DNA from: an uncultured Bacteroidales bacterium
GTDB lineage: Bacteria > Bacteroidota > Bacteroidia > Bacteroidales > UBA932
Assembly (NCBI GenBank): GCA_949297365.1
Contig: CASFSL010000006.1
Span: 1 to 42,582, forward strand
Direction of reading: 5' to 3'
Length of the DNA: 42,582 bases
Shown here piece after piece: positions 6,405-36,778 of the stretch; the stretch's first letter is position 1; each line of letters opens with the position of its first letter. The notes under the pieces are model-generated. The model saw only the letters and a program-made list of their open reading frames with translations, was not told where the DNA came from and did not search any database. A program made the translations under genes and the position numbers.

Positions 6405-6740
6405 ATGGAAAAAGACAGGCAGTTGAATACACTCGAGGAGATACGCAGGGCCATTGCGGACAATGACAGTCTGCGTCTGGATACGGATATCCCGGACGAG
6501 GACAGGAAGATGCTGGAGGCAGCCGCTCTCTCTCTGAGGGAGATGGAGAGGGAGGTGCTCTCGGAGACTGCGGAGGGACTGCTGGACCGTATGGAAGCGG
6601 CTGCCGGACCCCTCAAGGAGATGGCAGCTCAGATACGCTCCCGGGTTACGGATATGAATAAGCCTTCCAAGGTCTTGGAGCACATAAAGAAAGTGATGTC
6701 GTTTGTTACCGGCCTGCTCAAGGAGGCCGGCAGGTGGTAG
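6405..6740 (+). CDS. Small all-helical cytoplasmic protein, function unknown
   Basis: A 111-residue acidic protein with no signal peptide or transmembrane segment. Predicted helices cover about 5-18, 31-55, 56-80 and 86-108, with heptad-like spacing (EMEREVLSETAEGLLDRMEA). No family is recognised. It lies 7 bp after the helical lipoprotein and ends 2 bp before the ATG chosen for the TPR/AraC regulator, so it belongs to the same transcript. A role as an accessory protein of either neighbour is only inference from position. Confidence 0.6.
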   Translation: MEKDRQLNTLEEIRRAIADNDSLRLDTDIPDEDRKMLEAAALSLREMEREVLSETAEGLLDRMEAAAGPLKEMAAQIRSRVTDMNKPSKVLEHIKKVMSFVTGLLKEAGRW

Positions 6741-6742
6741 CC

Positions 6743-8392
6743 ATGGACCTGCGGATTGTCATATTGGCCATCGGGCTTTTGGGATGGCTGTCGGTCTCGT
6801 GCTCCGAGGATGCGTCAGTGAATGTGGACCCGTGCGCGGAAGTGGACAGTCTTGCCTCTGCCGGGCAGTATGAGAAGGCGGTGAGCCTGGCCAGGTCCAT
6901 ATATGACAGTGCCAGGATGTCCGGCAACCGGCGTGAAGCCGTTGCGTCGGGTGCTAGACTGGGCCGTCTGTACTATATGACCTTCTCTCCGGATTCCATG
7001 TATTATTACTTTGATGCGGTGACGCAGGACGCAGAGGAACTTCAGATGTATCCCGAATGCATAATCATACACAATATCACCGGTGTCTACAATCTGATAA
7101 ACGCCATTGAGTATGAGAACGCCCTGCATCATTTTTACGAGGCAATAGACTGCGCGGAGAAGAGCGGCAGCACGGATGCCTATTATATGCTGTTGATCAA
7201 TGTGTCCATCATCCACTATATCAGGCAGGATCCTGCCGGCCTGGCCACTGCCGGGGAGATCTGTGATTATGGCAGGCGGACCGGAGACAGCTATTTTATG
7301 TACACTGGATCCTTGATGTATGCCTATATGTATCACAGTCTGGGAAATGACCAGGAGGCTCTCAGGTATATCCGGGAAGCGGAGCGGTGGCCGGAGCATT
7401 CGGTGGGCTCCAACTCCTATGAGCCGCTTTATGCCTCTGTTCTGGCATCCTTGGGCAGGAACGGTGAGGCGGAAAGTGTATTCCTGCACTGTCTGGAGGC
7501 TCACAGAAATGATGACAGCACGATGCAGGTGGAGGCTCTTGCCGGCTACGGAAAATTCCTGGCCGGGAATAAACGTTACAGAGAGGCTGTGGAGTATTAT
7601 CGGCGCGGGCTGGATATAACGGAGAAATATCAGCTTTACTTCTACGGTTACGGGATATATCAGGAACTGGCGGAGGTGTATTCCGCTATGGGCGAACATG
7701 ACCGGGCCGTGGAGTATCTGTCCATGTATTACGATCTGAAGGACAGGGTCTTCAATGTCGAGAAAGAACGCTCCTTCAACAGCCTAATCCGTCAGTATGA
7801 GGGGCAGAAGAACGCCAATGAGCTTCAGCGCAGGGATGTGCAGCTCTTGAAGCAGAGGCAGTTGATAGAACTGGTTGTGGCGGCGTTTATAGTGGCCGTG
7901 GTAGTCGTGCTGGCAGTGGTTATGCGGAATAGGTCGCAGAACAGAATGTACCGGCAGCTTGTGACCAAATACAATGACTATATGCAGCGGGAGAAAGAGC
8001 TTATGGCGCGTCTTGAGACCGCTGATAAGGAACAGGGTGGGGAAAACGACAGGATAAGACAGCTCTTTGACCGGCTTTCAGAAATGATGAGGCAGGAGAA
8101 AATGTATGCCTTGAAGAATCTGACGGTGGAGGATGTGGCTTCCCGTCTGGGAACTAACAGAAGCTATCTTTCCAAGGCCGTCAATACCTATGCCGGGGTC
8201 TCGTTCAACTCCTGGCTTAACTCCATGCGCATAAAGGAGAGCATAGAATTGCTTTCAAAGACGGAAATTCCCATTAAGCAGGTTGCCGATGAGGTGGGAT
8301 ACAGCAATCTGACCACTTTCTACAACAATTTTATCAAAGAGACTGGCGTTCCGCCGTCTAAGTACAGACAGGAGTCCAGGATAGGGTTTTAA
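6743..8392 (+). CDS. Lipoprotein-anchored TPR / transmembrane / AraC-type regulator
   Basis: A 549-residue one-component sensor-regulator. The N-terminus has a lipobox-like end LSVSC (C20). Residues about 30-340 are tetratricopeptide-type helical pairs (for example GQYEKAVSLARSIYDSA, YREAVEYYRRGLDITEK, GEHDRAVEYLSMYYDLKD). A coiled coil at about 345-372 leads to a transmembrane helix at 375-394. A second coiled coil precedes a C-terminal AraC-type double HTH at about 455-545, with DVASRLGTNRSYLSKAVN and IKQVADEVGYSNLTTFYNNF. A periplasmic TPR sensor with a cytoplasmic DNA-binding end is the likely topology. ATG 6743 was chosen over the in-frame GTG 6734, which overlaps the upstream gene. The BACON/LRR lipoprotein gene directly downstream is the obvious candidate target. 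A second protein of the same design lies at 35024. Confidence 0.82.
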   Translation: MDLRIVILAIGLLGWLSVSCSEDASVNVDPCAEVDSLASAGQYEKAVSLARSIYDSARMSGNRREAVASGARLGRLYYMTFSPDSMYYYFDAVTQDAEELQMYPECIIIHNITGVYNLINAIEYENALHHFYEAIDCAEKSGSTDAYYMLLINVSIIHYIRQDPAGLATAGEICDYGRRTGDSYFMYTGSLMYAYMYHSLGNDQEALRYIREAERWPEHSVGSNSYEPLYASVLASLGRNGEAESVFLHCLEAHRNDDSTMQVEALAGYGKFLAGNKRYREAVEYYRRGLDITEKYQLYFYGYGIYQELAEVYSAMGEHDRAVEYLSMYYDLKDRVFNVEKERSFNSLIRQYEGQKNANELQRRDVQLLKQRQLIELVVAAFIVAVVVVLAVVMRNRSQNRMYRQLVTKYNDYMQREKELMARLETADKEQGGENDRIRQLFDRLSEMMRQEKMYALKNLTVEDVASRLGTNRSYLSKAVNTYAGVSFNSWLNSMRIKESIELLSKTEIPIKQVADEVGYSNLTTFYNNFIKETGVPPSKYRQESRIGF

Positions 8393-8402
8393 AAACATCA
8401 AT

Positions 8403-8456
8403 TATACAAATCTTGAAAAATTTAAAAATTAAAATTTTGTCGTATTTGTATATTTG
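8403..8456 (+). promoter_or_regulatory. Inverted repeat and -7-like element upstream of the BACON/LRR gene
   Basis: TATACAAAT (8403-8411) and ATTTGTATA (8444-8452) form a perfect 9-bp inverted repeat separated by 32 A/T-rich bases. TATATTTG (8449-8456, TAnnTTTG) overlaps the right arm; a TTG at the expected -33 distance is not evident. The arrangement would suit an operator overlapping a promoter between the regulator and its neighbour, but A/T-rich DNA makes chance repeats more likely. Confidence 0.4.
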
Positions 8457-8480
8457 TGTAACGTTTTTAATCTAACCAAT

Positions 8481-10490
8481 ATGAGAAAAAGTTTATCTAT
8501 CCTTGTTATGATTATCGTCAGTTCGGTATTCATAATGACATCATGCAAGAAAAATGAGGTGAAGCCGGAGGAGAAGCCTCAGATTACTCTCAGTGACGGA
8601 AATACTGTTGAATTCTCTGCTGAAGCCGGTTCCAAGGACTTCTCTTTCAACACAAATGTTCAGTGGTATATCTCTTATGAGCCTGAGGAGTGGCTTTCAA
8701 TTACTCCGCAAGGAGGCGAGGCAGGGGATATTGTCGTTGAACTGACAGTACAGCCCAATAATGATACGGTAAGTTCCAGAAGCGCGTCGTTCACTATTGT
8801 GGCGGGAGGCGTTTCTGAACCCGTAACTGTTACTCAGGCTGCTCGGGGCACTGGAGGAGACGAGCCGGAAGGAGAGGAATTTGACCCTGATTTTCTTGCG
8901 TTTCTGCTGAGCAAGTTTGACACGGACTCGGACGGAGCCCTGAGTGAGGAGGAAAAGCTTGCAATAACAGAGATAACATGCACGGACCAGGAGGCTGTCA
9001 TAACCTCAGTGAAAGGCATCAGGGAACTGACTAATCTTGAAAAGCTGACGCTCAGTTACAATTCGGTAGGACCGGATCTGGATCTGAGCGGCATGACCGC
9101 CCTGAAGGAAGTGTATTGCGACCATAACCTCATCCTCAATCTGAACCTAAGCGGCTGCTCTTCGCTGGAATTGCTCAAGGCCAATGACATGACCGGATAT
9201 ATACTGGAGTCTGTAGACCTGACGGGATGCTCGGCATTGAGGTCCCTGAACATAGTGGACGGAGCTGTGTCGGAACTGGATATCTCGGACTGCAAGGCAT
9301 TGGAGGATATCAACATCGCTTACAATTCCATATCAGAACTGGATTTCAGTAATAATGATGCTCTTGTAAACGTTACCACGCGCAGAAATCCCATGTCCGG
9401 CTTTACCCTTGATCTGAGCGGGAAAGCAGAAATGGAGTATCTGAACTGTTCCGAGAGTCAGCTCTCCGGTCTGAATGTGTCCGGATGTCCGGAACTGCAG
9501 CAGCTCATAGCCTATGCCAACCAGATTCCTTCAGTTGATGTGACAGCAAGCTCAAAGCTCTATAATTTCCAGTTATACAGCAATCTTCTTACGTCAGTAG
9601 ACCTTACGCGGAATCCTGAGATCACATCCTTGGACGTGGCCTCCAACCAGTTGACCTCCCTGGATCTTTCAGGAAACAAGAAACTCACCGGCCTTACATG
9701 CTGGTCCAACCAGATAGGGGCGCTTGACCTGTCCGGATGCTCGGACCTGACGTCAATCAATGCTTTCAATAATGCTATAACCTCTGTCAATCTGGATGGA
9801 TGTGTGGCACTCGCAGATATTGATTTGCATGATAACCAGCTTACTTCCATAGACTTGTCAGACTGCAATACGGTCATAAGGTCTTTGACTGTTTACGGCA
9901 ATGCCCTTACAGAGCTGGATATGACGGGCTCCTCAATAGCCTATCTCTATGTGCAGCAGAATGATATGACATCCCTTGTCCTTGAGGGATGTACGCAGTT
10001 GTATCTGCTTAATTGTTCCAGCAATGATCTGACAGAGCTGGATCTGACTGACGCCACTTCAATTACGGAGATTGAGGCAAGTGCGAATGCGATTACGTCA
10101 GTCCTGTTCCCGGCCACCGGCACGCTCGTATCCGTGGGACTTGGCGGCAATCAGTTGACAAAGGTGGATTTGAGGGGATGTGACAATATCAATTCCCTGA
10201 CATTGGCGTCGAACAAGTTCACGCAACTGAGTCTGAATTATCTGAAAAACGTGGCCATGTTGGATGTGTCTATCAATCAGATAGAGTCTCTTGATATAAC
10301 AAGCATGGCAGTAATTACATCGGTGTTCTGTCATGATAACGGCATGAAGGAGTTGTATATCAACGAGAATGCCAATCCAAGCCAGTTGCGGGTGGATGAC
10401 GGATGCACAGTGTACAAAGGACCTGCCAGGGACTATGATGATGTTGATACCGGCAACTGGGGTGATACTGAAATCAATCCATGGGAATAA
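8481..10490 (+). CDS. BACON / EF-hand / leucine-rich-repeat surface lipoprotein
   Basis: A 669-residue protein. The signal peptide ends in a lipobox (FIMTSC, C22), so it is a lipoprotein, probably surface-exposed. Residues about 33-120 form a BACON-like beta-sandwich (QWYISYEPEEWLSITPQGG, ending PVTVTQAA). A single EF-hand loop DTDSDGALSEEE (147-158) is followed by KGIRELTNLEKL and about twenty internalin-like leucine-rich repeats of 20-22 residues, of the form LTSLDLSGNKKLTGLTCWSN, up to about residue 640. BACON domains are thought to bind glycans or mucin; LRRs bind proteins. The in-frame ATG at 8454 was not used because the signal peptide starts at 8481. It is followed 26 bp later by the fimbrillin-like gene. 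Confidence 0.85.
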   Translation: MRKSLSILVMIIVSSVFIMTSCKKNEVKPEEKPQITLSDGNTVEFSAEAGSKDFSFNTNVQWYISYEPEEWLSITPQGGEAGDIVVELTVQPNNDTVSSRSASFTIVAGGVSEPVTVTQAARGTGGDEPEGEEFDPDFLAFLLSKFDTDSDGALSEEEKLAITEITCTDQEAVITSVKGIRELTNLEKLTLSYNSVGPDLDLSGMTALKEVYCDHNLILNLNLSGCSSLELLKANDMTGYILESVDLTGCSALRSLNIVDGAVSELDISDCKALEDINIAYNSISELDFSNNDALVNVTTRRNPMSGFTLDLSGKAEMEYLNCSESQLSGLNVSGCPELQQLIAYANQIPSVDVTASSKLYNFQLYSNLLTSVDLTRNPEITSLDVASNQLTSLDLSGNKKLTGLTCWSNQIGALDLSGCSDLTSINAFNNAITSVNLDGCVALADIDLHDNQLTSIDLSDCNTVIRSLTVYGNALTELDMTGSSIAYLYVQQNDMTSLVLEGCTQLYLLNCSSNDLTELDLTDATSITEIEASANAITSVLFPATGTLVSVGLGGNQLTKVDLRGCDNINSLTLASNKFTQLSLNYLKNVAMLDVSINQIESLDITSMAVITSVFCHDNGMKELYINENANPSQLRVDDGCTVYKGPARDYDDVDTGNWGDTEINPWE

Positions 10491-10516: not shown

Positions 10517-11908
10517 ATGAAACGCAATATATATCTTTCAGTAGCGGCCACAGTATCGGCCATTCTTTTCTCTGCCTGTCAGATTACGGAAGTGTCGGAC
10601 AGCATAAAGACGCGCAGTATAACTGTCTACCCTGTGGAGGCGGATACAAGGACCAGTCTCGAATACGAGTACTCCGACTACTCACATCTTGTGTGGTGCG
10701 AAGGAGATGTGGTGGCCTATGTCACAGATTGTGCATCGGACGTGGTCAAAGAAGCGCAGGTATCTTCTGAGGGTGTGTTTACAGCGACAATACCTGAGAG
10801 TGCCGGGACGGACAACCGTCTGTACGTGGTTTATCCTGGAGACAGACTGGCTGGAGGAACGCTTGCTGATCTCAGCCTGGAAATCAGTGCTCAGCAGACG
10901 CAGGACTCGATAAGTGCAGTCAACAGTACCGGTATTGTGATTCCAATGATGGCTTGTACGCATGTGCCTGAGACCGGTGAGACATCCGTGTCAGTCAGCT
11001 ATGACGTGCCGGTGTCTGTGATCAGGTTTGATTTTGCCACTGCGGATTTCCCTCAGGACCAGATACAGTCGGTGACATTCACTGCGGCGCAGCCTGTGGC
11101 GGGAACTGTAAATGTGGCCGGATCCGTGAACGGAGACGTGATTTTCAACGGTGTGTCCAACAGTGTCACCACAACGATAGACAGACTGTCTCCTCTGGAA
11201 AGGGGCGGATATGTGTACGTACCCGTTATGCGCGGCTCTTACAGCGGTGTGACTCTGGAGGTTGTGACCGACAACAATGAGTTCGTCTTCCGTGACGGTA
11301 ATTTCGAGCTGGATGATCCTGATGCGACTTTGTACAAGGTGGAGATGACGCTCGGGGAGGGACAGGTAATCAGGGACCCGTATTTTGTCGAAATATCCGA
11401 AGACGAGCAGTTCTCTCCGGACAACAAGTACCTGATAGCATACAGGCAGTCCGATTATGTCTACCGTGTGGCATCGGAGCACATATCATCTAAGATAGAC
11501 GCGGTGACAATTGAGTATGATCCTGACTTGGGCGGTATTCCGGTTGTAGGTGATGTGATGGATTATGTATTCACAATAGGACCGGTAGCAGGTGCTGACG
11601 GGTATTACTGGCTGTACAGCGAGGCCGCCGGGAATACCAACGGTAATTATATCGGTTCTGCGGGCGGTACCAGTGCGGCTGGAAACTTTTTCTTTCAGAA
11701 TACGGAGCCTACCTCTTCCAGCAACTACTATATATGGCAGATCACGTACGGTGACGGTGTTCAGTATATTTACAATGAAGGCAGGAACCGTTGGTTTAAA
11801 TACGATGCCAGTGCTAACTCGGGAAAATTCGTCACAAGTTCTGTAGGTGAGGACAATACGGGTAATGAGTATATAAAGGATATTACTATCCTGAAACTGA
11901 TAGAATAA
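10517..11908 (+). CDS. Fimbrillin-like lipoprotein
   Basis: A 463-residue predicted lipoprotein (lipobox ILFSAC, C21) made mostly of beta strands. The order of features fits Bacteroidota fimbrillin-type proteins: a short linker, an early arginine-threonine segment (EADTRTSLEY) typical of the fimbrillin start, aromatic W-x-x-GD (LVWCEGDVVAYV), TGxxxIPMMA (near 137-146) and a tandem beta-sandwich with VSVIRFDF. The last 130 residues (YFVEISEDEQFSPDN onward) differ from fimbrillins and resemble a compact beta domain rich in Tyr, Trp and Asn, perhaps a ligand-binding tip. It probably shares a transcript with the BACON/LRR gene. Whether it is polymerised is not visible. Confidence 0.6.
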   Translation: MKRNIYLSVAATVSAILFSACQITEVSDSIKTRSITVYPVEADTRTSLEYEYSDYSHLVWCEGDVVAYVTDCASDVVKEAQVSSEGVFTATIPESAGTDNRLYVVYPGDRLAGGTLADLSLEISAQQTQDSISAVNSTGIVIPMMACTHVPETGETSVSVSYDVPVSVIRFDFATADFPQDQIQSVTFTAAQPVAGTVNVAGSVNGDVIFNGVSNSVTTTIDRLSPLERGGYVYVPVMRGSYSGVTLEVVTDNNEFVFRDGNFELDDPDATLYKVEMTLGEGQVIRDPYFVEISEDEQFSPDNKYLIAYRQSDYVYRVASEHISSKIDAVTIEYDPDLGGIPVVGDVMDYVFTIGPVAGADGYYWLYSEAAGNTNGNYIGSAGGTSAAGNFFFQNTEPTSSSNYYIWQITYGDGVQYIYNEGRNRWFKYDASANSGKFVTSSVGEDNTGNEYIKDITILKLIE

Positions 11909-36688: not shown

Positions 36689-36709
36689 TAATTTGTATTC
36701 TCGTATAAA

Positions 36710-36761
36710 CAATATAATATTGAATTGTGAAATCAGTTTGAGAAATTCACAGCAATTCAAT
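36710..36761 (+). promoter_or_regulatory. Inverted repeats upstream of the BACON lipoprotein gene
   Basis: CAATAT-A-ATATTG (36710-36722) is a perfect palindrome. ATTGAATT (36719-36726) pairs with AATTCAAT (36754-36761), and GTGAA (36727-36731) with TTCAC (36746-36750), with a 3-nt bulge. This occupies the 90-bp gap between the regulator and its neighbour, so it is a candidate operator or leader structure. No TAnnTTTG is obvious. Confidence 0.45.
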
Positions 36762-36778
36762 AATTAAAACTTAACGAG

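Follow-up and report, generated by a model that had tools for sequence, protein, structure and literature searches.

Predicted membrane-spanning TPR-AraC regulators beside exchangeable lipoprotein genes: candidate surface-lipoprotein expression sites in a genus of uncultured Bacteroidales

Bacteroidales is an order of bacteria common in animal guts. Regulators of polysaccharide utilization loci of the HTCS/SusR type have sensor propeller or kinase parts and SusC/SusD neighbours. Sensing by tetratricopeptide repeats (TPRs) has been described for FimS of Porphyromonas gingivalis, a sensor kinase whose periplasmic domain has eight predicted TPRs and which controls fimA; according to the article, single substitutions in FimS, five of six of them in TPR motifs, lower or raise FimA, and the authors thought a polypeptide ligand possible (PMC11053733). 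VtrA/VtrC and ToxR/ToxS are co-component systems with a periplasmic receptor, named fast-evolving cassettes in the title of an article (PMC9214523). The window analysed here is a stretch of 42,582 nucleotides (nt) from an uncultured Bacteroidales bacterium (contig CASFSL010000006.1), whose genome, G000, comprises 2.28 Mb in 51 contigs. It holds two units in which the gene for a regulator with TPRs, a predicted transmembrane (TM) segment and an AraC-type helix-turn-helix (HTH) is followed by a lipoprotein gene. Such pairs recur in the genome and in the genus, and it is considered fairly probable that the regulator is a one-component switch in the inner membrane and controls a site from which exchangeable surface lipoproteins are expressed.

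Pfam matches above cut-off in the first regulator include HTH_18 (71 bits against a cut-off of 33.6), HTH_AraC and TPR_12, and its C-terminal double HTH, modelled as helices 434-547, exceeds the family cut-off and is of the AraC/XylS type (Table 1). An AlphaFold2 model built from 45 family members (mean pLDDT 87.9) has a short N-terminal helix, 16 helices in the TPR region that amount to about eight TPRs, and a single helix of 89 residues that holds the hydrophobic stretch and is followed by the HTH helices. The HTH folds 6swi and 3lsg were among the matches of a fold search with this model. The TPR part resembles by sequence the peptide- or protein-binding TPR receptors RapJ and RapH, and by fold it matched LGN, Rap with its peptide (4gyo) and NprR. 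Since basic residues follow the TM segment, the HTH would be cytoplasmic and the TPRs periplasmic, and the model fits a regulator that spans the inner membrane. A sequence-only reading of the window had seen a lipobox, TPR helices, a TM helix and a C-terminal double HTH in one chain, which Pfam, the model and the sequence bear out. The same reading had placed the sensor at the outer surface or in the periplasm; a periplasmic TPR sensor fits the topology, but an outer-surface regulator does not, because the TM helix and HTH place the protein across the inner membrane. A lipobox is found in 8 of 11 own-genome regulators by the strict rule, in some of them only with an early start codon. Neither HisKA nor HATPase was among the Pfam matches of the first regulator, and Pfam found no HTCS/SusR-type sensor propeller or kinase families in the two window regulators.

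Eleven full-length regulator paralogues are present in G000, with 24-31% identity to the first regulator in a multiple alignment and up to 33% in pairwise search. Their neighbours were determined using a gene caller for which the window and background stretches of G000 served as training data, and one lipobox rule, strict or relaxed, was applied to all genes. The next gene is a co-directional lipoprotein gene for 8 (strict) or 9 (relaxed) of the 11 regulators, as against 25 or 27 of 201 genes in 14 background stretches of G000. Regulators at E<=1e-30 were found in 11 of the 14 same-genus relatives searched; 67 hits yielded 57 full-length same-genus regulators after partial, split and distant-genome ones were dropped, and a co-directional lipoprotein gene comes next in 36 (strict) or 39 (relaxed) of the 55 with a next gene in view. 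Against the background of 27/201, Fisher tests gave p 2e-6 for the own genome (9/11) and p 4e-16 for the genus (39/55), where the background is one genome and the genus counts take in orthologues and metagenome-assembled genomes (MAGs), which are not independent. At a threshold of 50% identity the regulators fall into 23 orthologous groups, one of them with no view, and the regulator-lipoprotein order is found in 19 of the other 22. The recurrence that had been claimed from two pairs lies beyond chance and is much wider than two.

When the genes of the downstream runs were clustered by single linkage, one cluster had 39 members and another 11, and Pfam found BACON and fn3-like domains in own-genome members of the former and Big_2 with a weak Lcl_C in those of the latter. 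The partner in the first unit carries BACON and leucine-rich repeats (LRRs) and directly follows its regulator at a distance of 88 bp from stop to start, as had been read from the sequence and as the Pfam scores in Table 1 confirm. Its cluster has three members, all from the window's own locus, so that the BACON/LRR partner is an unusual cargo of a common site; judged by domain matches, most partners carry BACON, fn3-like or other beta repeats and the LRR type is the exception. Synteny of this gene is maintained in loci L024 and L025, and two named relatives of the window locus are MAGs of uncultured Bacteroidales. An EF-hand-like loop, DTDSDGALSEEE, was noted in it by eye, and EF-hand_7 matches weakly over this loop (E 0.015, 16.1 bits against a cut-off of 30). 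In L104, which holds the orthologue of the first regulator, the regulator is split into two frames and both downstream lipoprotein genes are open; the split could be decay or an assembly error. The second unit had been called a copy of the first. The pair is real, but its regulator is 27% identical to the first and its lipoprotein, with BACON at 34.7 bits (cut-off 25), matches no LRR family, so that the arrangement is paralogous rather than copied. The model of this second lipoprotein is weak overall (pTM 0.42), and no specific fold was accepted for it, the beta-sandwich strings having TM-scores of 0.06-0.22 among the 50 matches listed. The sole specific fold match, over 114 columns, is to the B. 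ovatus GH5 xyloglucanase 3zmr, an enzyme carrying BACON. Solved-structure relatives of the lipoproteins proposed by sequence were rejected as weak fn3-like, lipocalin-like or chance matches. Lipoproteins exported to the surface of Bacteroidota carry an acidic export signal after the Cys; D or E occurs at +2 to +6 in 25 of 36 distinct lipoprotein tails, a count that has no control set and in which several tails begin at the wrong Cys. Lipoproteins of the Omp28 family lie near two regulators (L015 7949-9358, L018 1823-2974).

Most gaps that separate a regulator from the next gene measure 65-141 nt. The motif TANNTTTG, the Bacteroidota -7 consensus, occurs in 37 of 45 gaps of 40-250 nt behind regulators, a set that includes some behind partial regulators and before genes missed by the lipobox rule; dinucleotide shuffles gave 3.6 (maximum 9 in 100), and ordinary same-strand gaps contain it in 10 of 27. 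When one gap per orthologous group was used (20 picked), 15 contained the motif as against 1.6 in shuffles. In 26 of the 37 gaps, 22-36 nt lie between the end of the last box and the called start codon. Because the box is present in 37 of 45 gaps, the lipoprotein gene probably has its own promoter behind the regulator. The longest inverted repeat of the first gap, with 9 nt, is reached by 3 of 20 shuffles, and the 10-nt repeat of the second by none of 20, and both are kept as leads; at the same place in the L068 gap, which belongs to the orthologue of the second unit, a different hairpin-like sequence was seen by eye. Invertible promoters were considered and rejected, as no inverted pair in the surroundings of the two units, covered by four stretches 251-401 nt long, was taken for an invertible segment. 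A co-directional gene lies less than 100 nt upstream of 33 of 62 regulators, partial ones included, and LepA and ClpX are Pfam-confirmed examples of such housekeeping neighbours.

At three loci, named C1, LepA and C19, orthologous regulators with partly kept promoter starts precede unrelated or distant lipoproteins (20-32% identity). At C1, comparison with three orthologues gives 97-99% identity for the regulator and 24% for the lipoprotein; the upstream gene is 98-99% identical in two of the three. All three share the base at which DNA homology ends, which lies in the Cys codon of the lipobox (codon 27); homology returns on the far side 5.4 kb away, in L059 for only 75 nt. The intervening segment in G000 also holds another regulator-lipoprotein unit, which is convergent. 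When G000 is compared with L072, L075 and L087 at the LepA locus, homology ends 27-32 nt past the regulator stop and, for L075, returns at the next shared gene. The cargo there is three lipoproteins in L014 and one lipoprotein with a subtilase in L075, and L066 retains the G000 cargo; the subtilase (L075 9051-11483), behind the swapped lipoprotein, has a Por secretion tail. At C19, homology ends 73 nt past the regulator stop, and the lipoproteins are 29-30% identical, which may reflect strong divergence and not replacement. Sixteen within-group pairs, which derive from these three loci, are not independent and have regulators 49-99% identical, show lipoprotein identity below 35%. The identity of the first 75 nt of their gaps exceeds the 95th percentile (65.3%) of 780 other pairs, possibly including a few from one group and with rows not independent, in 13; two equal 65.3% and one is below (61%). 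Mean divergence is 30% and 35% in the two TPR halves and 17% in the HTH (52 within-group pairs with HTH divergence >5%), an estimate that replaced one from fixed positions. At a further locus of the C37 type (L018, L067, L071, L073), L018 and L071 share 100% of the HTH and 74-79% of the TPRs, and L071 and L073 share 100% of the TPRs and 94% of the HTH. Such regulator mosaics may reflect exchange of the sensor domain alone between species.

On the favoured reading, each unit would serve as a local expression site for surface lipoproteins. The regulator, often located behind a housekeeping gene, would act as a single-pass inner-membrane one-component switch in which the periplasmic TPR superhelix binds a small protein or peptide signal and the bound state is relayed through the long TM helix to the cytoplasmic AraC-type HTH. 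The HTH would in turn act on the promoter just behind its own gene and turn one to three adhesin-like lipoproteins on (or off). At some sites the regulator and promoter start would be kept between species and the lipoprotein body exchanged by recombination, so that the displayed surface changes and its control does not. The wider proposal is held more tentatively, at somewhat under an even chance: duplicated TPR-AraC switches would mark fixed sites throughout the genus, bodies would be exchanged between species behind kept regulators and promoters, and combinatorial surface variation would arise under unchanged sensory control. If true, the system would complement FimS-like TPR sensing with a one-component form and would give Bacteroidales a regulated means of varying the surface by exchange of cargo. 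Eleven natural variants in one genome, together with lipoprotein-swapped orthologues that separate sensing from cargo, would make the ligand of periplasmic TPR sensors testable.

Beyond the dependence of the counts given above, several observations weigh against an expression site under local control. The next gene is not a co-directional lipoprotein gene for 16 of 55 regulators by the relaxed rule. Some of these have a divergent lipoprotein gene instead, located upstream in 3 of 3 members of the L062 group and in 6 of 7 of the L018 group (one by rule, five by eye; L085 is ambiguous). The L017 group fits in one of four members and the other three lack a co-directional lipoprotein; L017 itself has no downstream partner and stands beside convergent genes for SusD and a TonB-dependent receptor (SusC/SusD type). 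The motif TANNTTTG also occurs in 7 of 27 gaps before regulators, and the gap of the second window unit is without it. There is no general operator signal in 24 gaps, where the mean longest inverted repeat is 6.7 against 6.1 in shuffles and direct repeats are 6.25 against 5.94; a common operator was rejected because both are near shuffle level. The L068/L069 gap changed along with the lipoprotein (57% identity), and between the second window unit and L068 the regulator is 98-99%, the lipoprotein 54% and the gap 57% identical. Lastly, many members of the partner lipoprotein families are encoded away from any TPR-AraC gene.

This last point, and the differing bodies at constant sites, would also be expected if lipoprotein cassettes merely land by recombination behind regulators that control something else. 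Such an unregulated insertion hot spot is unlikely, as the gene order is common to 19 of 22 orthologous groups and the promoter start is mostly kept where the body differs. Less likely again is a feedback sensor, whose TPR domain would bind the neighbouring lipoprotein or a piece of it in the periplasm and so tune expression of that lipoprotein. The two genes are tightly adjacent, the nearest TPR fold matches bind proteins and peptides, divergence of the TPR part is about double that of the HTH, as expected when tracking a changing ligand, and the LepA and C19 regulators (49-73% identical) changed along with their lipoproteins. However, swapped lipoproteins behind orthologous regulators count against a sensor matched to its own lipoprotein: at C1 nearly identical regulators precede the exchanged bodies, which makes the body an improbable signal, although recognition of the kept signal peptide alone would be possible there. 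The window locus shows the reverse, with the regulator 77% and the lipoprotein 97% identical to L081. The earlier suggestion of a sensor wired to its own lipoprotein can be divided accordingly: transcriptional wiring is likely from the promoter-like box, and recognition is weakened by the uncoupling at C1, LepA and C19.

A glycan-uptake regulator akin to SusR/HTCS, whose partner lipoproteins would bind glycans at the surface, is very improbable. Pfam describes BACON as a putative binding domain, the second lipoprotein matches a xyloglucanase as described above, and one regulator, that of L017, has the SusD and receptor neighbours already noted; but for the remaining ten regulators of G000 neither SusC/SusD nor a glycoside hydrolase was noticed directly alongside, among the N-termini and Pfam matches of selected neighbours, which were not exhaustive.

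The regulator-lipoprotein pairing appears restricted in its taxonomic reach. Across 15 genomes of the genus, regulator matches correlate with matches to two lipoprotein alignments (Spearman 0.88 and 0.91), where the genomes are relatives and not independent points, match segments are not genes, and G015 and G016, of other genera and with no matches, were left out. In a survey of 295 genomes of the order, the own genome included and four candidates per genome scored, 45 genomes in 36 of 177 genera had a match at 1e-40 or better. At 29 loci outside the genus, viewed in flanks of about 1.5 kb with a cruder gene caller, the co-directional next open reading frame is at least 80 amino acids (aa) long in 20, and a lipoprotein comes next in none by the strict rule and in one by eye (L136). 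A universal pairing of TPR-AraC regulators with lipoproteins was therefore rejected. The neighbour survey proposed beforehand thus gave a divided answer, non-random within the genus (39/55 regulators, 19/22 groups) and nearly empty outside it. The TPR-TM-AraC architecture is widespread; pairing with lipoproteins seems to characterise this genus and not the architecture as such.

Other local arrangements were observed. Four related cNMP-binding-like proteins of 191-199 aa in G000, two of them with the domain above the Pfam cut-off, are each divergent from a lipoprotein of the same superfamily and are possibly a second class of dedicated local regulator. In L019 (3161-6745) a TPR histidine kinase, a LuxR-type response regulator and a lipoprotein of another kind stand in a row, by gene order a two-component version of the regulator-lipoprotein theme. 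In L020 (5167-9039) a 139-aa relative of the regulators that consists of the HTH only lies beside a lipoprotein; divergent from it is a TPR protein whose C-terminus looks LuxR-like by eye, with GerE below cut-off (E 0.039).

Table 1. Positions of the features, in window coordinates unless a locus is named.
Feature	Coordinates	Strand	Basis or remark
TPR-TM-AraC regulator 1, 549 aa	6743..8392	+	alternative upstream GTG start at 6734 also open
Predicted signal peptide, lipobox LSVSC (Cys20)	6743..6802	+	sequence; strict lipobox rule
TPR superhelix, residues 30-336	6830..7750	+	Pfam, AlphaFold2 model; putatively periplasmic
Predicted TM segment, residues 375-394, within helix 339-427	7865..7924	+	by eye, model
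AraC-type double HTH, HTH_18, residues 466-543	8138..8371	+	Pfam, model
Regulator-lipoprotein gap, first unit	8393..8480	+	-7-like box TATATTTG at 8449-8456 in imperfect dyad 8399-8456
BACON/LRR lipoprotein, 669 aa, lipobox MTSC	8481..10490	+	Pfam
BACON domain, residues 64-120	8670..8840	+	Pfam, 42.9 bits, cut-off 25
LRR region, about residues 184-610	9030..10310	+	LRR_4, 82.6 bits, cut-off 27
Second lipoprotein of first unit, 463 aa, no Pfam family	10517..11908	+	26 bp past 8481-10490
Lipoprotein upstream of regulator 2, 447 aa	33609..34952	+	fn3 E=2.9e-4, below cut-off
TPR-TM-AraC regulator 2, 554 aa	35024..36688	+	Pfam, alignment
Gap of second unit	36689..36778	+	without TANNTTTG; 10-nt perfect inverted repeat 36718-36762
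BACON/beta-repeat lipoprotein of second unit, 614 aa	36779..38623	+	Pfam, model
Four cNMP-binding-like small regulators	L125 8299-8889, L127 2501-3097, L128 10546-11121, L020 4513-5112		

Judged by its architecture, FimS is the closest studied analogue. The FimS-FimR-FimA system shares periplasmic TPRs, membrane anchoring and control of a surface adhesin, and the FimS model touches the TPR-TM part of the first regulator, which likewise has a TM segment and a TPR domain that would be periplasmic. FimS differs in having two TM helices and in being a histidine kinase that works with a separate response regulator, whereas the output here is a fused AraC HTH; the FimS NCBIfam model gave 19.8 bits against a cut-off of 600, and the first regulator does not qualify as a kinase. 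One-component regulators of the AraC/XylS type share the HTH_18 and HTH_AraC domains above the Pfam cut-off, but the AraC sensor is a soluble cupin domain and not a membrane-anchored TPR superhelix. The YSIRK-targeted surface antigen regulators (TIGR04094, adjacent_YSIRK) are likewise AraC-type and adjoin a surface antigen gene; they are Gram-positive and not known to be membrane-spanning, and the match is confined to the HTH (35.9 bits, cut-off 200). Rap and NprR, TPR peptide receptors of the RRNPP type, share the sensor fold (TM-score by target 0.60 for 4gyo and 0.55 for 5dbk) but are cytoplasmic, and no fusion of them to a TM helix and AraC HTH is known. VtrA/VtrC and ToxR/ToxS are also regulators with a periplasmic receptor, and they differ in sensor fold, HTH type and partner. 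The regulator-lipoprotein layout was not recognised in the open-licence PubMed Central literature searched. Each part is of a known kind, and the multiplied layout with exchangeable cargo is new as far as that literature tells.

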